From a virus, in IMG/VR virus record IMGVR_UViG_3300042868_007742, positions 1 through 24,068 of that record: 24,068 nucleotides of DNA; one strand, given 5' to 3'. Of the stretch, positions 13,048 through 23,870 are shown piece after piece (position 1 is the first letter of the stretch; each line of letters begins with the position of its first letter). A program made the position numbers and the translations under genes. Under the pieces are notes generated by a model. The model searched no databases, was not told where the DNA came from, and saw only the letters and a program-made list of their open reading frames with translations.

Positions 13048-14136
13048 TTAGGCAACCGCATACACGCCAGAGCTGTTGAGCTGGCGAGCGACAGTGCCGC
13101 CCGTCCAAGTCATGGCCCGGTACAGTGTGTACTTGTCATACGGGCGGGCCGGGGTGTGGGTCTTCCGGTCTTCACCTTCCATGACGTACAACTGGATCGC
13201 ATCAGAGTCGATCATGTAGCAGCGCTTGGAGTAATCCACAGCACTGCCAGTGATCGCTTGAAGGTCGTCCAGCGTAGGATCGTACTCGAACGTGCCAAGG
13301 CCGCGCAGGCTGATCTTGGCCATGCCGATGTCCGTTTTGCCCTCAGACTTGAAGCCCTCAAGGGTGTAGTACCCTTTTTCGTGGACTTCAGATTCCAAGG
13401 CCTCAATGAACTTCGATCCGCACAGGATAACGGTGGGCTTGCCGCCGTAACGAGTGAGCTGGCGAACTTCCTTGCGCAGGAACTTCGTGAGCGTCTGGCC
13501 ACTGGGGCTTGCGGTGATGGTGTTTGCACCAACAGCCGCACGGTTGCGCCAGTAGAAGAAGCCCTTGTTGTCCACCGTGGTGGCGCGAGAAAGGCCGCCC
13601 AGCGTGCCAGTCGTGGGGTCGTCAGCAATGAAGCCGGTGATCCCAGCAACAAGCTTGGCGTCCTGTGCGCCATCGCGCCAGAGCATGTTGTTGAAGGTAC
13701 GAGCCCAGCCTTCTGCCATGTCGTCCAACTTGTCTTCAAGCAGGCCCACCAGACGAGTCATCTCAATGTTGGTGTGGTCAGTTGTCTTCGCGCCATTTGT
13801 CGAATCAATGACGGTAATCCCGTCACGCTTCAACTCAGACAGCGTAACAGTGATGCCGGCGTGGATTTCTTTCCAAGGAAAGTTGACGCGCTTGAGGTTT
13901 GCTGGGTTTGCGTACACGACGGTGTCGTCGTGACTGAAACCGGCGATTGCAGTGGTGTAATCACCCTTCACAGGAAGGTCGATTGAGCCCTTGCCGCCGG
14001 GGAAGGTCTTCTGACGCCGCATATAGTGGTCGAGCAGAGGACGATTTTGGATGGTCTGAGCAAACGCCGGCCCCTTGATATAGAAGTCGAGAGCAGCGTT
14101 CGCAATGTTGGTGATTTCAGCTTGTGAAAATGCCAT
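13048..14136 (-). CDS. Major capsid protein, 362 aa
   Basis: The order portal, acidic scaffold-like protein, then this gene identifies it as the major capsid protein. It starts MAFSQAEITNIANAALDFYI, with RRQKTFPGGKGSIDLPVKGDY in the region where HK97-fold capsids have the extended E-loop, and ends with a beta-rich domain containing CYMIDSDAIQLYVMEGEDRKTHTPARP. GC content is high (38 of 60 bases in the row 13441-13460 onward) and the codon choice is strongly biased, as expected for a highly expressed gene; this also creates long spurious antisense frames. The leader (GTAAAACGCAATCTAT before ATG) has no Shine-Dalgarno, which is odd for a capsid gene. A terminator hairpin follows. Confidence 0.85.
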   Translation of the reverse strand: MAFSQAEITNIANAALDFYIKGPAFAQTIQNRPLLDHYMRRQKTFPGGKGSIDLPVKGDYTTAIAGFSHDDTVVYANPANLKRVNFPWKEIHAGITVTLSELKRDGITVIDSTNGAKTTDHTNIEMTRLVGLLEDKLDDMAEGWARTFNNMLWRDGAQDAKLVAGITGFIADDPTTGTLGGLSRATTVDNKGFFYWRNRAAVGANTITASPSGQTLTKFLRKEVRQLTRYGGKPTVILCGSKFIEALESEVHEKGYYTLEGFKSEGKTDIGMAKISLRGLGTFEYDPTLDDLQAITGSAVDYSKRCYMIDSDAIQLYVMEGEDRKTHTPARPYDKYTLYRAMTWTGGTVARQLNSSGVYAVA

Positions 14137-15239: not shown

Positions 15240-17459
15240 TCAACCCATATTTGAGGCGGAATTTTGCATTGGAGCAGATCCTCCTACTGTTTGAGATGGC
15301 CCCGGAAGGGGCGCAGCGCCCGGTTGTCTGGGCTGCTCATTCTGCGCGCCCTCGGCTCCTTGTGCGTTTGGATCTTGCTCAGAACCAGCGGCCACTGCCA
15401 TCTGCTTCTGAGAGTTCATGGCAACAATTGACTGAAGCCCGGCAACTAGCGCGTCTGTAGTGTCCAAGTTGTCATCCATGCGCATGATTGCCTGTTTCAG
15501 CAGCCAGCTTGGGTCGAGGCCCGGAATTTGCATTATAATTGGCGCAAGTTGCTGGAAGTTTGCAACTTCTGCTGCTTTGTTTGGGCGTCCGGATGAACCA
15601 GCTTCAATTTCAAGCACCAGCTCGTCTGCAATTTCCTGCGCAGACATAACTGGCCAGACAGCTCCGGGTCCAACAATCTTTTTGACCGTTTCCTCGTTCA
15701 GGTTTGCCAACATGATCTGACCGCAGGCCCGAGCCATCTCAGACAGTAGGTCATCAAGGTCATCAATGTTTGAAGAGATAGCCGCAGACCGGCTCGATTC
15801 TGCAATTGAAGACTGCGTGGCAGTGGCGCTGTTTGTGCCGCCCATGTTGGCCTCTTGGCCACCCACCGTCTTAAGTACGTCATCAAAAATGCCATTTGTC
15901 TCGTACAACGCTGGGTCGATGGGCGCCGGTTTGATGGCCTGAATAACCTCAGACACGCTTTGTCCGGGCTGAAGGGCATTCAGCACCACTACAGCGTTGT
16001 TTGGTCGCGTCTGGAGCTTTTGGACATCCTCTTCATCGAGCATGCCGTTTGGCACGGCGTAAACGGGTCGGTTTGCGATACGGTGCTCGCGTAAGGCCTG
16101 CCGAGAGCGATTGAACTCTTTCTGCATGGGAGCCAAGAGCTCCACATCAGACGGCGGGAAAATTCGACGCTCGTTTTCAATGTCATTAAACGTCAGCGAA
16201 AAGAATGGCCAGAAACGCTCAAGCTGCACATCAGGGGCGCTTGGCTCCTCAAGGAACTCTGGGTAGCCATCGCACACCTTGTAAAGCATGCCGTCTGTTT
16301 TTGAGTAGATTTCCCAGACAACACACATGTCTTTGTCTCCGGGCTCCTTTTGGCGTCTCAAAGGGTTTTCGGCAGGAGCTTCCGGACGGTATGCCGTGTA
16401 GCTCTTTCCGATGTCCACGTTGTAGATCTCCTTCATGTCATCCTTGGACAAGATGAACTCCTGAGCCACCCATTGCGCACCAATGAAGGTGCGAATGTTG
16501 CGGCAGCGCGGGTCAATAATTACCGAAGTTGACGCCGGGAAATCAAAGATTAGCCCCTCTTTGAGGATTTGATCCGGCTTGGCGCGCAGCTCATCAAGAA
16601 GAATGCGAAGCTGCTCGGTTTCGGGGTCATCTTGAGTGATCTTTTCGTCGATTTTGTCTGCGGAGATGCGCTTCAACATCGCAATCCGCTGTGTCACGTC
16701 CGTGATCTTTTCTACGTCCTCAGGGCGCTTTTGCAGGATCCGCTGGAAGCCGACTTTCATGTAGGCAACCGAGCAGGTGCAGGCCCGCCGGATCATCTGC
16801 TTTACCTGAAGCTTAAACCCCGGCTCCTGCTGATGGATGTAGTAATGGAACAGAATCTCCATGGTCTTGGCGATCTTGTCCAGCATCTGACGCCTCTGGA
16901 AGCCCTGCATGGCGTCCTGAATCATGGACTGCGACTGCATGCCCACAGACGGGTCAACAAGGCCCATGGATGCGCCTTGTAGCGACTGCATTGCCGAGTT
17001 CAGGGACTGCATGTTTTCGTCCCATACAGCGAAGTCTAAAGTCTTTCGGCGCTTGCAGACGGCTTTTGGGTTTTTCGCGTACAGCGCAGCTACTTTTTGC
17101 TGAAGATGCCGCTGCACGATGTTTGCGACATACTTGTCTCGCGACTCACTGTCACTTGGCCACTGGTTGCCATGGACAAAGTCCATGTTTGAACGCATCC
17201 GCTTAAAGTCATCTCTCCAGTGCTCTTTTGCCGCAGTGACAAGCGAGGTCCATCGCTTTACCAGAGCCCTGCGATTTGGCTCCGGATCCGGGTCAATACG
17301 ACGAATTAGACCACTTGCTTCCTCGCTGTTTTTTGAGCCCACATCAAGCGACTCCTGCTCGGTGCCCGGCACCTCAAAGCCAGATAACGCTCCCTGCGCA
17401 GCCGGAAGCCCCTCTCCCGGCCCCGAGTTTGGTTCCTGTCCCTGAAAAATGTGTGCCAT
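15240..17459 (-). CDS. Portal protein, 739 aa
   Basis: The protein directly follows the large terminase and has the helical, Gln/Arg-rich organisation of portals. Recognisable parts are an N-terminal helix pair around KEHWRDDFKRMRSNMDFVHGNQW, YVANIVQRHLQQKVAALYAKNPK, a central wing with FPASTSVIIDPRCRNIRTFIG and WEIYSKTDGMLYKVCDGY, then ANRPVYAVPNGMLDEEDV and a helical stem/crown with GGTNSATATQSSIAESSR. It forms the dodecameric DNA channel in the capsid vertex. At 739 aa it is clearly longer than T7's portal (about 536 aa) and closer in size to P22-type portals, so the head may not be of T7 ancestry. The start lies 11 bases after the TerL stop and lacks a Shine-Dalgarno. Confidence 0.85.
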   Translation of the reverse strand: MAHIFQGQEPNSGPGEGLPAAQGALSGFEVPGTEQESLDVGSKNSEEASGLIRRIDPDPEPNRRALVKRWTSLVTAAKEHWRDDFKRMRSNMDFVHGNQWPSDSESRDKYVANIVQRHLQQKVAALYAKNPKAVCKRRKTLDFAVWDENMQSLNSAMQSLQGASMGLVDPSVGMQSQSMIQDAMQGFQRRQMLDKIAKTMEILFHYYIHQQEPGFKLQVKQMIRRACTCSVAYMKVGFQRILQKRPEDVEKITDVTQRIAMLKRISADKIDEKITQDDPETEQLRILLDELRAKPDQILKEGLIFDFPASTSVIIDPRCRNIRTFIGAQWVAQEFILSKDDMKEIYNVDIGKSYTAYRPEAPAENPLRRQKEPGDKDMCVVWEIYSKTDGMLYKVCDGYPEFLEEPSAPDVQLERFWPFFSLTFNDIENERRIFPPSDVELLAPMQKEFNRSRQALREHRIANRPVYAVPNGMLDEEDVQKLQTRPNNAVVVLNALQPGQSVSEVIQAIKPAPIDPALYETNGIFDDVLKTVGGQEANMGGTNSATATQSSIAESSRSAAISSNIDDLDDLLSEMARACGQIMLANLNEETVKKIVGPGAVWPVMSAQEIADELVLEIEAGSSGRPNKAAEVANFQQLAPIIMQIPGLDPSWLLKQAIMRMDDNLDTTDALVAGLQSIVAMNSQKQMAVAAGSEQDPNAQGAEGAQNEQPRQPGAAPLPGPSQTVGGSAPMQNSASNMG

Positions 17460-17472
17460 ATTTTTGGTGGTT
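17460..17472 (-). promoter_or_regulatory. SD-less leader AACCACCAAAAAT before the portal gene
   Basis: The bases immediately before the portal ATG on the minus strand read AACCACCAAAAAT and overlap the TerL stop codon region. There is no purine-rich Shine-Dalgarno. The element matches the AACCA-plus-A-tract pattern of three other starts in this window. Confidence 0.45.
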
Positions 17473-19084
17473 AATATCCGTCTGCGTGAGCAAGCCGCTT
17501 CATGTCTTCCTCGTATTTACTCGCCATTTTCACCCACTCTATTGAGCCGGTGCGTGGTTGAAGTGATTTTTTTATAGAGGGGATGCTTGCAGCGACCTGC
17601 ATGGAAAGACCCAATCCTATCCAAGCAAGAGTGTCCACGAAATCGTCGTGTCTGGCGTTGGGAAACTTCAGAATTTCATCCTGTGCGTCAGACCACCAAG
17701 ACGCGAATTCCGGGAATCGCACGCGACCCATGCTCATGCGGCCTTGGATGGACTGAGCGCGTGTCTGTTTGTCCTTGGCCGGCGTCACCTCTTCAATGGC
17801 ACAGAAGATCTCTTCTTCCACCATGCGTTTTCTCAAGAACGGGCCAATGGACTTGGTGATGTGGCCTTTTTCCGCAAACCAAAGCAGTGGCCTGCGGCGC
17901 TTCATCATATCCAGCATGGCATCCACCACGTCGTCTGTGTTTGCGCGCCTCCACCAGACATCCGGAAGCACCCAGATGACGTTATTTTCATCCACGCCCA
18001 CCGGAATCATCACTGTGGCGTCACGATTTTGAGCCGTGGACACGGCGTGATCGCTTGCGACGTAGATTCTCAGGTTTTTAGGCAGCTCGTCTGGCTTGTA
18101 TGTCTTCAGCCAGTCTTTTTTGAAGAAGTCCCCGTCGTCCGGCGTAGGATTGCCCTGAAAGAGAGCAGAGAAACCACGAGGATCCAAAGTGCGCACATTC
18201 CGAAGGTAAGGAATGGGGAAGCGCTCGGGCCAGAGTGGCTCTCCGGGCTCGCGACCCATTGGGTCTTTCTCGACGGCAATGGCCGGTAGAGACAGGATCT
18301 TCCACTGTTTCGCTTCATCAAATTTGTAGTGCTCATTTCTTGGGTCTGTGAGCCGGCCCACGATGTCATCTTCGTGCCAGCGGGTCATAATAATCACCAC
18401 AGAGCACCCGGAATCCATAAGGCGGGTGTAGGCCACCCTTGTGAACCAATCCCAGAGCCTGTCACGGGCCGCTTTTGAGGCTGCGTCTTCAGTGCCCTTG
18501 ACGGGGTCATCAATCAGGAGGCAGTGAGCACCGCGACCCGTGAGCGCGCCGCCTTGGCCCACAAAGACCATTAGGCCGCTGTGGTCTGTTTCGATGCGGT
18601 CAGCGGCCGCCGAGCCTTTGCGAAGTGTGGCGTTCGGAAAAATCTGCCGGTAGATGGGCGAGCGCATCGTGTTCCGGACACTTCTGCCGATGTCTTCCGC
18701 GTACTCTTGGTTGTATGTGGCAAAAATTACCGAGTTCTGCGGGTTTTTGCCGATGAACCAAGGGATGAACTTCTTGGACGCCAGCTCTGTCTTACCGTGA
18801 CGCGGCGGCATTGTGATGATGAGCCGCAGCATCTCGCCTTTCTGAATAGACTCAAGGGCCGCTGCGAGAATCCGGTGATGCTTTACCGGCTCATACAGGC
18901 TCGCATTCGGGTTATCCGGATCGTCCGGACGCGGCATCATCATGTGCGTAAAATCCAGCAGAGACGCCTGAGCCTTGCGGGCGCGGATCATGCGCTCCGC
19001 AGCAGACACAAGCTGCTCTTGTGCCTTGATCTCTGCCTCAAGCGCGGCCCGCGCCTGCGCCTCCTTCTTCTGCTCTGGGGTCAT
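17471..19084 (-). CDS. terL: Terminase large subunit, 537 aa
   Basis: This is the ATP-driven packaging motor and headful/terminus nuclease. The ATPase has a Walker A motif TMPPRHGKTE (residues 91-100), Walker B HCLLIDDPVKG (187-197) with the acidic pair, and coupling motif IIMTRWHEDD (231-240). The C-terminal RNase H-like nuclease shows IYVASDHAVST (340-350, first Asp at 345), WFAEKG (402-407) and ARHDDFVDTLAW (477-488) with further metal ligands. An N-terminal Ala/Glu-rich coil (about 5-40) precedes the core. The start overlaps the stop of the 143-aa gene (TGATG), and AAGGTGG lies seven bases upstream. All key residues are present, so it looks functional. Confidence 0.96.
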   Translation of the reverse strand: MTPEQKKEAQARAALEAEIKAQEQLVSAAERMIRARKAQASLLDFTHMMMPRPDDPDNPNASLYEPVKHHRILAAALESIQKGEMLRLIITMPPRHGKTELASKKFIPWFIGKNPQNSVIFATYNQEYAEDIGRSVRNTMRSPIYRQIFPNATLRKGSAAADRIETDHSGLMVFVGQGGALTGRGAHCLLIDDPVKGTEDAASKAARDRLWDWFTRVAYTRLMDSGCSVVIIMTRWHEDDIVGRLTDPRNEHYKFDEAKQWKILSLPAIAVEKDPMGREPGEPLWPERFPIPYLRNVRTLDPRGFSALFQGNPTPDDGDFFKKDWLKTYKPDELPKNLRIYVASDHAVSTAQNRDATVMIPVGVDENNVIWVLPDVWWRRANTDDVVDAMLDMMKRRRPLLWFAEKGHITKSIGPFLRKRMVEEEIFCAIEEVTPAKDKQTRAQSIQGRMSMGRVRFPEFASWWSDAQDEILKFPNARHDDFVDTLAWIGLGLSMQVAASIPSIKKSLQPRTGSIEWVKMASKYEEDMKRLAHADGY

Positions 19085-19529: not shown

Positions 19530-20591
19530 TTAATAGGTTCCAAAATCAGGACTTGCGTCAGCAGCGGCCTGAGCGGCCTGAGCGGCCGTTAGCGCTGTGG
19601 CCGCATTGTTGAATGCCGAATCCGCTCGGGCCTGAGCGGTGGCCGCATTGGTCACGCCCAAATTTCCGCGAGTCAGCGCTGTTGCGGCATTTGTGACCGC
19701 CGTGTTGGCGGTTGTCTGCGCCGCGTTTGCTGCTGTTAGCGCATTGTTGGACGTGGTGTTTGCCGAGGTGGAGATGCTGTTTGCGTTGTTCGCAGTTGTA
19801 ACAGCGTTGTTCGCAGTGTTGGCAATGTTGTTGGCAACCGTCTGCGCAGTCGTGGCGGTTGCAGACGCCGTGTTGGCCGTGGAGATTGCCGTGTTGGCCC
19901 GCGTCAGCGCCGTGCTGGCGTTTGCATTGGCAGTGGTGGCGTCATTTGCCGCGTTGATCGAGCGCGTGTTTGCCTGAGTGGCTGTTGCTGTTGACGAGTT
20001 TGCTGTGGCAATTGCACTGTCGGCTTTGGTGACCGCGTTGGCGGCCACTGCGGTTGTGGCGTTTGCCGTGGTCACCGCACCGTTTGCCGTAGAGACTGCG
20101 GCGGCCGCAGTGTTTGATGCGGCTTGGGCGGTGGTGGTGGCCGCGTTGGCCGCAGATACTGCTGTGGCCACTTGAGTGGTGGCAGTTTGGGCTGCTGTGG
20201 TTGCTGTTGCAGCAGCAGAAGATGCGGAAATCGACCTATTGTTTGCTGTATTGGCTATCCCAATCGCCGAGTCTGCGGTTGCTGTTGCGGCGTTTGCCGT
20301 GGTTATGGCCGCCTGACTGTTTGCCAGCGCCGTGTTGGCATTGGCAATCGCTCCCGGCATCTGCGAGACACTTGTCTGCACCGGAGTGGACAGGGAGTCA
20401 GTTGTGACGATCCCGTTCTTGAGCGCCCCGTCATCCCGCTGCACCTCAAGCGTCCGATCAATCAATTGATTAACTCTGGAGACGATCTGGTTGAATTCGG
20501 CATCCAGATCCACCGGATCATACGACTGCCCAACGACAGCGTTGGAGGTGAATGACGTGATTCTGACAAGGTCTGCGGGCACAGCGCTCAT
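19530..20591 (-). CDS. Tail-fibre-like protein with Ala/Thr/Asn repeat stalk, 353 aa
   Basis: I place the start at the ATG at 20591 (MSAVPADLVRITSFTSNAVV); the frame stays open further upstream only by running through a tRNA gene, so longer versions are rejected. Residues 1-75 look like a podophage fibre attachment domain: 'LVRITSFTSN...VGQSYDPVDLDAEFNQIVSRVNQLID'. From about residue 80 to the end the protein is almost only Ala, Thr, Asn and Ser in quasi-heptads such as TANNAVT and TANTAVT, consistent with a long alanine-core trimeric coiled coil. It ends DASPDFGTY without a globular receptor-binding or chaperone domain. The gene is upstream of terL rather than after the internal virion genes. 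No Shine-Dalgarno is visible. Confidence 0.8.
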   Translation of the reverse strand: MSAVPADLVRITSFTSNAVVGQSYDPVDLDAEFNQIVSRVNQLIDRTLEVQRDDGALKNGIVTTDSLSTPVQTSVSQMPGAIANANTALANSQAAITTANAATATADSAIGIANTANNRSISASSAAATATTAAQTATTQVATAVSAANAATTTAQAASNTAAAAVSTANGAVTTANATTAVAANAVTKADSAIATANSSTATATQANTRSINAANDATTANANASTALTRANTAISTANTASATATTAQTVANNIANTANNAVTTANNANSISTSANTTSNNALTAANAAQTTANTAVTNAATALTRGNLGVTNAATAQARADSAFNNAATALTAAQAAQAAADASPDFGTY

Positions 20592-20643: not shown

Positions 20644-20675
20644 CCCCTCCGCTCGCTACCACACGAACGGAGGGG
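20644..20675 (-). other. Strong hairpin just downstream of the tRNA
   Basis: CCCCTCCG (20644-20651) pairs with CGGAGGGG (20668-20675); the RNA read from the minus strand extends this with three further pairs and one G-U to about 12 pairs around an eight-base loop. It lies 22 bases beyond the tRNA 3' end and 53 bases before the tail-fibre start. What follows is TTGCCTTTGC, a poor T tract, so it may be a weak terminator, a processing or stability element for the tRNA, or a barrier in the fibre leader. Confidence 0.6.
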
Positions 20676-20696: not shown

Positions 20697-20771
20697 TGGT
20701 AGCGGGGGCGTGAGTCGAACACGCGACCTTCTGGTTATGAGCCAGACGAGCTGCCACTGCTCCACCCCGCG
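20697..20771 (-). tRNA. tRNA-Met, anticodon CAU, initiator (fMet) type
   Basis: The 75-base gene folds fully on the minus strand: acceptor CGCGGGG/CCCCGCU, D stem GAGC/GCUC, anticodon stem UCUGG/CCAGA around CUCAUAA, five-base variable loop, T stem GCGUG/CACGC with loop UUCGACU, and an encoded ACCA end. The anticodon is CAU. Position 1:72 is C-U, so no Watson-Crick pair, and pair 11:24 is A:U (purine:pyrimidine); both are initiator hallmarks known from bacterial tRNA-fMet, and the first 14 bases match the E. coli initiator. It differs in having only two of the three consecutive G:C pairs at the base of the anticodon stem and a short seven-base D loop. Confidence 0.93.
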
Positions 20772-20986
20772 ATTGGAGCCGTCTCTCCGGCTGTCACGCC
20801 GATAGGCAGGCGTTCGCCACAACTCACATGTCAGTTGCCGACAGGCACCTTTTCCTCGGCTTTACCCGTGAAGAACGCAGGTGTCGCGTGCCAATCACCC
20901 GATTTCTATTAGCCACACCTTTCAGCAGTGGTCGGGGCGCATGGCGGCGCGTGAGGCCCAGAGTGTACAGGAGCAGACATCCGGGC
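20772..20986. other. Non-coding stretch between the early-block terminator and the tRNA
   Basis: About 215 bases with no convincing gene on either strand. Short frames exist but run into the terminator or lack starts with signals. On the minus strand it holds several small GC stems, for example ACGCC...GGCGT and GCCG...CGGC just before the tRNA 5' end. A TAATAG (in GGCTAATAGAAATCGG, around 20905-20920) could be a -10 element for transcription of the tRNA and late genes, but no good -35 is seen 16-18 bases upstream. It is the most likely place for a late promoter. Confidence 0.45.
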
Positions 20987-21021
20987 AAGAAAAAACCGCT
21001 ATCCACACTCATGGATAGCGG
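20987..21021 (-). terminator. Intrinsic terminator of the thyX block
   Basis: A perfect 10-base stem, CCGCTATCCA (20996-21005) and TGGATAGCGG (21012-21021), with a six-base loop, is followed on the minus strand by TTTTTTCTT. It lies 56 bases past the stop of the 79-aa gene and separates the nucleotide-metabolism block from the tRNA and late genes. Confidence 0.9.
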
Positions 21022-21316: not shown

Positions 21317-21501
21317 CAGTGTGTTTGTGGTTCGTGATCCAGACTCGCTTCGAGCTCGACTGGGTCTATATGTATTTGATTGCTAACGATTAAGCGCGCT
21401 TCGCACTCGCCTTCGGCGCGCACCTTCCATTTCCGAAACGGCAGGAAATCAGCGGTCACAACGTAGTTGAGCCGCCAGTCCCTGCGGGGCTGCTCATTCA
21501 T
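21316..21501 (-). CDS. Uncharacterised small protein, 61 aa
   Basis: I chose the internal ATG at 21501 because it overlaps the ThyX stop (ATGAATGA) and is preceded by a GGGGGATAAAG sequence acting as a weak Shine-Dalgarno; a longer frame begins inside thyX. The protein is basic and then acidic (EQPRRDWRLNYVVTADFLPF, later VELEASLDHEPQTH). It is probably a small beta-rich domain and is of unknown function. Confidence 0.6.
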   Translation of the reverse strand: MNEQPRRDWRLNYVVTADFLPFRKWKVRAEGECEARLIVSNQIHIDPVELEASLDHEPQTH

Positions 21502-22153
21502 CTTTATCCCCCAACATGGCTTCTGCAATGTCCGGAAAAATGTCCCGAAAGATACAGCTAATCTCAAAGGCAATGTGCCGATGTTCGAGCTGGGTGTCTT
21601 CTTTGGTCCGGAGACGCAGATAGTGGATCCAATCCCGAACGCTGCCGGTCATGTACACAACTGTCTGCGCACACATGGGCAGGATCATCCGAGCGCACTC
21701 GCGGGCCACGCCGGCGTCCAGCAGGTCAGAGTAGGCCTGCTCGGCAAGCTCGATCTGCCGGTTCACGATGAGCTTCAGCTCCGGGCTGTCACAGTGCTCG
21801 GAGCTGGACTGTCGGTTCTTGGCCGCCTGTCTGCGCAGCTCCACTGGCTCAAAAGCCGGCACAGAGGCGTACCTTTGTGAAAACTCCTGAAAGTGGAAGC
21901 TGCGGTGACGCAGGATCTGCGCGCTGATGGCGCGGGAGGTGGTGATTTCCACACCCAGCGAGGCCTGCTCAAAGACCGACCAATGCCCGTGCTCCATGCA
22001 GTACCGCAGGAGCCTTGGGCCGGAGGCCGTGTTGAGCTGGTTGATCGGATTGGACACGCGGGCCGCGTAGACGATCAGGTCTTGGGCCGTACGGATACCC
22101 TGCCTGACAAGCTCAGGGGCCGGTTGAGTGAACGAAATAAGTTTGACACTCAC
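21494..22153 (-). CDS. thyX: Flavin-dependent thymidylate synthase ThyX, 219 aa
   Basis: ThyX makes dTMP from dUMP using FAD, NADPH and methylene-tetrahydrofolate. The signature RHRX7S is intact as RHRSFHFQEFS (residues about 82-92), followed by QRY. Upstream is EHGHWSVFEQAS (about 55-65), and the C-terminal block WIHYLRLRTKEDTQLEHR fits the substrate-binding region. The start is GTG at 22153, overlapping the stop of the 128-aa gene as GTGA, with AAGGGAG (22162-22168) eight bases upstream. A 25-residue Arg/His-rich extension from an upstream ATG is out of family and rejected. With the nearby dNMP kinase it serves phage thymidine nucleotide supply. Confidence 0.95.
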   Translation of the reverse strand: MSVKLISFTQPAPELVRQGIRTAQDLIVYAARVSNPINQLNTASGPRLLRYCMEHGHWSVFEQASLGVEITTSRAISAQILRHRSFHFQEFSQRYASVPAFEPVELRRQAAKNRQSSSEHCDSPELKLIVNRQIELAEQAYSDLLDAGVARECARMILPMCAQTVVYMTGSVRDWIHYLRLRTKEDTQLEHRHIAFEISCIFRDIFPDIAEAMLGDKDE

Positions 22154-23131: not shown

Positions 23132-23671
23132 CTATTCGGCCGGTGGGCAGGCGAGCTTTAGCCTTTTTTCGAGGCGCTTGTCTTTTTCCAGCCTCACCAC
23201 GGCGAGCACGTTCTCATGCAGCGCCTTGAGTGTGCTGTCGTTGGCAATGGTGTAGTCGTGCCGGATCTCCAGATGTGCCGTTTCGGAGATGTGGTGGTTC
23301 TGGGGGTGCGAGGGGCGCGTGATGTTGATGATGATGCCGCCTCTTTTGGCAATGAAATCTGCTTCGTTACCAAACCGCACGTCCGTCCACAGGATCGGCG
23401 CGTTCCCGGCCGTATCTGGCAGCCGCTCAGACACGACCTTCACCCACAGGTCCGGGTCGTAGGCTCTGCCGGCCATGCCGATGTCTTGCAGGAGGCGGCG
23501 GCCCCTGAGGTCTTTGTTGCCGTCCCAGCCGATGCTCTTGGCGATGGCCTTGAGCGCGTCTGCGAACGCGCGGCGCGTGTAGCGCACGTCTGCCTTGTAC
23601 ACGGCGTCTGAGGCCGCGTTCTTTCCCGCACCGGCGAAGCCGGTGAAGCCGATGTCGAAGAGGTCGTTCAT
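23132..23671 (-). CDS. Deoxynucleoside monophosphate kinase, 179 aa
   Basis: The enzyme phosphorylates dNMPs to dNDPs for phage DNA synthesis. The P-loop GFAGAGKN (residues 11-18) follows a short DLFDIGFT strand. As in other phage dNMP kinases, the residue after GK is not Ser/Thr (Asn here, Asp in T4 gp1). Further family-like parts are an RRAFADALKAIAKSIG helix, PILWTDVRFGNEADFI, GGIIINITRP and SETAHLEI. I chose the ATG at 23671 because the P-loop then sits near the N-terminus; a TTG 39 bases upstream is the alternative. No Shine-Dalgarno is visible. It pairs with thyX in the same block. Confidence 0.88.
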   Translation of the reverse strand: MNDLFDIGFTGFAGAGKNAASDAVYKADVRYTRRAFADALKAIAKSIGWDGNKDLRGRRLLQDIGMAGRAYDPDLWVKVVSERLPDTAGNAPILWTDVRFGNEADFIAKRGGIIINITRPSHPQNHHISETAHLEIRHDYTIANDSTLKALHENVLAVVRLEKDKRLEKRLKLACPPAE

Positions 23672-23870
23672 GGTGCGCGTCAAGGTGGGGTGTGTTGTTT
23701 TTGCTGTCAACTAATTTTAGCGAGGGGGGCGGCCCGCGTCCAAAGTCCACCCGTCGGGGGTGGGTGGCGGGGTCCGCATGTTGCACATGGCGCATCTGCA
23801 TGTTGCCTTGCATTAGGTGCCAATCCCCCACGTTTACAGAGAGAACCGCCCACTTCTTGCGCTTCGCGCA
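23672..23870. other. Intergenic region before the dNMP kinase
   Basis: About 200 GC-rich bases. On the minus strand it holds a CCACCC...GGGTGG short stem (around 23744-23765) and a TTGACA at 23705-23710 without a convincing -10 element at the right distance. A frame across it continues into the kinase gene in another phase and is not credible as a gene. Confidence 0.4.

Follow-up and report, generated by a model that had tools for sequence, protein, structure and literature searches.

The only tRNA gene detected in this stretch of viral DNA is, on its sequence features, of the initiator type, and it lies at the head of the late genes beside a conserved, covarying two-helix leader RNA that is in no Rfam 15 family. 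Both features recur: solitary initiator tRNAs of phages lie within the packaging/structural module, in the same orientation as its genes, and over 100 further phage contigs carry the leader RNA, in most cases upstream of terL and on the same strand. We consider it probable that the gene provides a functional phage-encoded initiator tRNA from a late-operon leader. The window (the whole stretch analysed, 24,068 nucleotides) is a 24-kb linear metagenomic record and a fragment; further tRNAs may lie outside it. Its relevant features are as follows.

13048-14136, minus strand: major capsid protein gene (phrog_9953, E 2.3e-40)
15240-17459, minus strand: portal protein gene (phrog_156; 45% identical to proteins of OP028995 and MN988536)
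17471-19084, minus strand: terminase large subunit gene, terL (phrog_38, E 2.5e-111)
19530-20591, minus strand: tail fibre gene (phrog_13173, E 1.4e-10), the first coding gene after the tRNA
20644-20675, minus strand: 13-bp hairpin between the tRNA and the tail fibre gene (z -6.3)
20697-20771, minus strand: initiator-type tRNA(CAU) gene, 75 nt, with the encoded CCA at 20697-20699 (ARAGORN, Rfam RF00005, covariance models)
20996-21021, no strand assigned: strong terminator-type hairpin at the end of the early genes, with T/A tracts on both sides (z -7.6)

The first-pass annotation had placed the tRNA between the early terminator and the tail-fibre, terL and portal block, and this placement is supported; the structured leader RNA, which it had not noticed, lies between the terminator and the tRNA. 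The hairpin at 20644-20675 may mark a processing site; alternatively it is terminator-like, though its U tract is weak. No promoter of the sigma-70 type could be detected at the tRNA, and a search for repeated phage promoters in the window returned coding repeats only. The tail fibre gene (19530-20591, minus strand) is largely an Ala/Thr/Asn-rich degenerate repeat, and the early block includes genes for a ThyX-like thymidylate synthase and a deoxynucleoside monophosphate kinase (21494-22138 and 23132-23710, both on the minus strand).

ARAGORN made a single call in the window, a tRNA-Met(CAT) running from 20771 to 20697 on the minus strand, which Rfam RF00005 matches with 60.4 bits (E 5e-11). 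The sequence, CGCGGGGTGGAGCAGTGGCAGCTCGTCTGGCTCATAACCAGAAGGTCGCGTGTTCGACTCACGCCCCCGCTACCA, with CCA encoded, forms a canonical cloverleaf with a CAU anticodon, C1xU72, A73, A11:U24 and a 7-nt D loop. The anticodon loop is an unchanged CUCAUAA, and the anticodon stem consists of U29:A41, G30:C40 and G31:C39, without the typical third pair G29:C41. It thus has the CAU cloverleaf, the unpaired 1:72, A11:U24 and the pairs G30:C40 and G31:C39 of initiators, and lacks the paired 1:72 (mostly G:C or G.U) and the C11:G24 of elongator Met and Ile2 tRNAs. A published survey covers 9,917 bacterial CAU tRNA genes, 4,438 of them initiators and 5,479 elongator Met or Ile2 genes; C:U at 1:72 occurs in 626/4,438 annotated bacterial initiators versus 0/5,479 elongators, A11:U24 in 4,430/4,438 initiators versus none of the elongators, and a templated CCA is typical of initiators (PMC5143459). 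The window tRNA scored 100.6 bits with an initiator covariance model (R1) versus 57.5 bits with an elongator-CAU model (R2), and held-out elongators score the opposite way, with R2 above R1. The window tRNA was left out of both models: R2 was built from elongator-type CAU tRNAs of viral contigs, and R1 from chromosomal initiators that a short-D-loop pattern had picked out, together with one E. coli tRNA-fMet sequence, which one phage record matches at 100%.

The published feature statistics and the model scores together make the tRNA initiator-type, as the first-pass annotation had proposed. Its other readings of the gene also hold: C1xU72 and A11:U24 are both present, the 5' end resembles that of E. 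coli tRNA-fMet (the first 15 nt match), and the anticodon stem has two rather than three G:C pairs, the third being replaced by U29:A41. The comparison with elongator models that it had suggested as a check came out on the same side, R2 lying 43 bits below R1. It is next to inconceivable that an elongator tRNA-Met or tRNA-Ile2 was mistaken for an initiator: the CAU anticodon is compatible with such a tRNA and nothing else is, and the sequence already refutes this reading, by the 43-bit deficit and by two features, C1xU72 and A11:U24, found in 0/5,479 elongators.

U29:A41 is the only unusual base pair of this tRNA; it is rare in bacterial chromosomes and common in viral contigs. Four other stem types (GGG/CCC, AGG/CCU, AGG/UCU and GGG/UCC) account for 4,423 of the 4,438 published initiators, so that U29:A41 can be present in at most 15, and because 556/4,438 have A at position 29, G29:C41 is typical without being universal and was not used as a defining feature (PMC5143459). 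U29:A41 was found in 1/118 of a chromosomal sample, in 0/201 Chloroflexota genomes and in 2/14 matched Patescibacteria chromosomes, the last of which rules out that the pair is strictly phage-specific. When viral contigs were searched with a pattern agnostic at 29:41, U29:A41 was present in 16/80 among the matches listed, versus at most 15/4,438 for chromosomes (Fisher p ~5e-21, a value inflated by phylum sampling and redundancy); a direct search for the pair in viral contigs gave at least 102 stretches. The 16S rRNA base G1338 contacts pair 29:41, and small changes in the contact region alter start-codon discrimination (PMC11497404). An initiator-like tRNA of Sinorhizobium phage phiM7 (L527 300-376) combines U29:A41 with C31:G39, so that a single one of the three G:C pairs, G30:C40, is left.

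The remainder of the molecule is ordinary. The short D loop, described in the first-pass annotation as a departure from the canonical initiator, does have 7 nt, but this is a common chromosomal form and no phage oddity, being normal in initiators of Chloroflexota, some Bacillota and CPR: a search of bacterial genomes with the short-D-loop 5' half gave at least 117 stretches, mostly in Chloroflexota, with some in Bacillota and CPR. Many of these chromosomal initiators share C1xU72, and the best among the matches listed are 68/75 identical to the window tRNA. These tRNA-fMet genes of Chloroflexota, CPR2 and Thermomicrobia (for example L086, L095, L109, L110, L142) have the same C1xU72, A73, short D loop, CCA and A11:U24 but differ in the T-stem and at 29:41, which is G:C in them and U:A in the window. 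The terL relatives of the window phage infect Microcystis, Rhizobium and Pseudanabaena; the tRNA resembles those of Chloroflexota and CPR. Among the closest terL relatives, no tRNA was detected in any of 19 records (0/19, many of them fragments), which rules out a tRNA conserved with terL across the lineage and indicates that the gene is dispensable there.

The rarity of phage initiator tRNAs implied in the first-pass annotation was overstated. Initiator-like tRNAs are present in 347 phage records (345 with the E. coli query), many of them annotated as tRNA-Met and in large tRNA-rich phages; they are a known class of several hundred records, mostly from tRNA-rich genomes, and one huge-phage genome has been reported to carry two tRNA-fMet genes (PMC10747093). 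The tRNA-rich phages (Mycobacterium C1-type, Caulobacter and Lak phages; 1-SewaA, PMC10747093) likewise encode initiator-type tRNAs, often annotated tRNA-Met, but there tRNA-fMet is one among many in a large genome, whereas here it is the sole tRNA of the window and lies in a late leader. In Bacteroides phage LoVEphage (L525 6001-6843), an initiator-like CAU tRNA heads an eight-tRNA array that lies between terL/portal and the major head gene.

The placement of solitary initiator tRNAs was analysed in dereplicated viral contigs where no other tRNA shares the locus with the initiator and a distance of 1 kb or more separates the initiator from the locus end; the loci or records in which tRNAs were counted may be fragmentary. 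With PF03237, phrog_2, PF03354 and a local profile, whose detection is incomplete, terL was found in 13/19 solitary U29:A41 lineages. In these 13 lineages, the tRNA is on the strand of terL in 12 and within ~7 kb of it in 12, both being true of 11; with the other stem types, the figure for the terL strand is 17/18 (p 1.4e-4). Among solitary elongator-CAU controls, terL was found in 8/20 lineages and lay within 7 kb in 2/8, so that proximity to terL differs between the groups (12/13 versus 2/8, Fisher p 0.003, the elongator set including larger genomes). Single genomes illustrate the arrangement: in MW202675 (L523 8000-8076), the major capsid gene is preceded by a U29:A41 initiator that the record leaves unannotated. 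Erythrobacter phage R6L (L522 4045-4121) has an unannotated C1xA72 CAU tRNA between the terminase and portal genes; this is a partial case and a possible hybrid, with an elongator-like C11:G24 and anticodon stem. In the contig of L209 (G144:C1 21979-23292), the terL match is interrupted by TAG and TAA, through recoding, an intron or decay.

The closest counterparts of the window tRNA are in two IMG/VR contigs, L207 (8011-8085) and L225 (3703-3777), whose tRNA is 72/75 identical to it and also lies in the late structural module, but directly after the major capsid gene. Their structural genes are unrelated to those of the window (neither the portal nor the other window proteins matched L207), and there are three copies of the leader RNA. 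This near-identity, which includes the leader (see the block below), points to transfer of tRNA and leader between phages.

20775-20814, minus strand: conserved two-helix leader RNA element (covariance model R3, 37.1 bits, E 3.4e-8)
20813-20809 with 20800-20796, minus strand: helix P1 of the element, ACGCC/GGCGU (covariation)
20795-20792, minus strand: GACA of the element
20791-20778, minus strand: hairpin P2 of the element, GCCG/CGGC with a GAGAGA hexaloop (covariation)
20779-20843, minus strand: block 91% identical over 66 nt to L207 7828-7893, upstream of the L207 tRNA (blastn)
20844-20887, minus strand: possible degenerate first copy of the element (GCGACACCTGCG ... GGTGCC), proposed from comparison with L207, L266 and L282

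The model R3 was built without the window copy. The motif occurs three times in L207 and also near initiator tRNAs in L266/L282, L240, the L232 family and L523; a motif scan of viral contigs regardless of tRNA gave at least 120 stretches (pattern GGYGTGACAG-stem-GARAGA-stem; loci window 20775-20814 on the minus strand, L528-L647 and L649-L653). Both helices are supported by covariation. P2 is fully paired in 99 of the 109 dereplicated copies among the matches listed, against a maximum of 38 in 1,000 shuffles, and its pairs include CG, GC, UA and AU. In the same 109 copies P1 co-varies, GGCGT going with ACGCC (51 versus 7) and GGTGT with ACACC (15 versus 2; p 8e-9). An alignment of 31 sequences has 99.7% paired cells, 43 double changes and a covariation of 0.405 versus 0.106 when shuffled; P1 partners were pre-selected in it, and the fair test of P1 is the 109-copy set. 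Comparison of Rfam 15 with the window and the element loci returned only the tRNA and weak, sub-threshold, unrelated matches. We found no description of this RNA in the open papers searched, and it may be described elsewhere.

Among motif-selected loci with terL, the element is on the terL strand in 23/24 pairings, mostly 0.2-0.8 kb upstream, the single off-strand pairing involving an instance with an unpaired stem. Cultured phages also carry it upstream of terS/terL (Cronobacter CS01, Morganella IME1369_02 and Pseudomonas Itty13), and in Pseudomonas Medea1 it precedes an early operon. Most copies have no tRNA. Where a tRNA lies within ~300 nt, 9/15 loci carry a CAU tRNA with initiator-type 1:72 bases, and a few nt separate the P2 helix from the start of the tRNA in the window (6 nt there) as well as in L207 and L523. 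At L540 4725-4799, L564 888-962 and L634 5741-5815, a C1xA72 CAU tRNA with an elongator-like D arm follows a copy of the leader RNA.

We read the leader RNA as a putative operon-leader control element because it lies upstream of terS/terL or of an early operon and on the strand of terL. Most likely it would control transcription of the late operon in an antiterminator-like manner, antitermination itself being a guess. The put antiterminator RNA of phage HK022 consists of two stem-loops in phage operon leaders (PMC9378689); like it and the lambdoid nut boxB, the window element forms two stem-loops in such a leader. It is not the put RNA, as neither the pattern nor R3 finds a copy in the HK022 genome (NC_002166). 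Antitermination acting on nearby terminators is not supported either: terminators lie within 300 nt downstream of the element in 5/97 cases versus 7% of random windows, with no enrichment. A search with R3 of 61 genomes of the phylum of G022 (a Sporosarcina) gave 0 matches, which, being without a positive control, shows little. It is possible, though short of probable, that a widespread RNA (P1 AC[G/A]CC/GG[C/U]GU, GACA and P2 with a GARAGA loop) heads late and some early operons of many tailed phages and controls their transcription, and that solitary U29:A41 initiator tRNAs were inserted beside it, coupling the supply of initiator to late expression.

The most likely role of the tRNA would be to supply initiator during the late phase. 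Late transcription would make a precursor holding both leader and tRNA, co-transcribed with the late genes, from which RNase P would separate the leader; the host would then charge and formylate the phage tRNA, and the extra fMet-tRNA would sustain initiation on virion mRNAs late in infection, when demand may be high or the host initiator pool depleted. Despite U29:A41 the core P-site pairs 30:40 and 31:39 are preserved, and a stem that carries U29:A41 might perhaps be a poorer target for initiator-specific host nucleases. The latter leads to a reading that we regard as rather unlikely yet still a live alternative, in which the tRNA mainly replaces a host initiator hit by defence toxins (by VapC-type cleavage of the anticodon stem-loop or AtaT-type acetylation of tRNA-fMet) and U29:A41 lowers recognition. 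VapC toxins of several bacteria do cut the tRNA-fMet anticodon stem-loop (PMC7180214, PMC8522696), extra initiator copies partly rescue growth (PMC8522696), phage tRNAs with anticodon-loop changes are predicted to give resistance (PMC10264068), and U29:A41 is concentrated in the viral stretches listed (16/80 versus at most 15/4,438 chromosomal initiators). Yet the anticodon loop of the window tRNA is unchanged, and the pair in 2/14 matched Patescibacteria makes a host origin possible for some of these tRNAs.

Late-phase supply must also be weighed against two further readings. The tRNA fold could mainly serve to cut the late transcript, by RNase P at its 5' end and by 3' processing before the tail-fibre gene, parting the leader RNA from the virion mRNA. 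The few nucleotides between P2 and tRNA in the window, L207 and L523 and the strong hairpins flanking the window tRNA agree with such a device; but any tRNA would do for it, yet 9/15 of the tRNA-bearing element loci have initiator-type 1:72 CAU tRNAs, initiator identity is preserved in detail and most copies of the element do without a tRNA, all of which makes it improbable. Slightly less credible still is a passenger, a host initiator gene acquired as a moron or att-site remnant without a selected role. In its favour, att sites are frequently tRNA genes, many viral contigs have an initiator tRNA close to a locus end, and the window tRNA differs from chromosomal initiators at as few as 7 positions (68/75). 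Against this, the gene is complete with intact hallmarks, deep in the late operon and co-directional with terL, the same placement is seen again in unrelated phages, none of the window proteins scanned was identified as an integrase, and the near-identity with L207, leader included, points to transfer between phages.

The presence of tRNAs in phages has long called for an explanation, and codon compensation is the one usually offered. That explanation does not extend to an initiator tRNA on its own, which can compensate no codons; its recurrent placement in the late module opens initiator supply, or the evasion of toxins aimed at the initiator, to direct test. The adjoining leader RNA, widespread, covarying and outside Rfam, marks late-operon heads, including those of the cultured phages CS01, IME1369_02 and Itty13.

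The first-pass annotation had further proposed that the initiator acts on start-site choice, several late genes lacking Shine-Dalgarno sites. Such sites are indeed absent from 6/14 late and 4/5 early genes tested, but usage does not differ between phages with solitary initiators and those with solitary elongators (p = 0.60), or between the former and terL relatives without tRNA (p = 0.12). Because terL relatives that have no tRNA lack such sites just as often, the missing sites are uninformative on the tRNA, and we rejected compensation by the initiator, a first impression from two relatives having been misleading. The same pattern (10/19 scored window genes without a Shine-Dalgarno site) is seen in the terL relatives L005-L012, and the genes of the window and of these relatives suggest a host with weak Shine-Dalgarno use.
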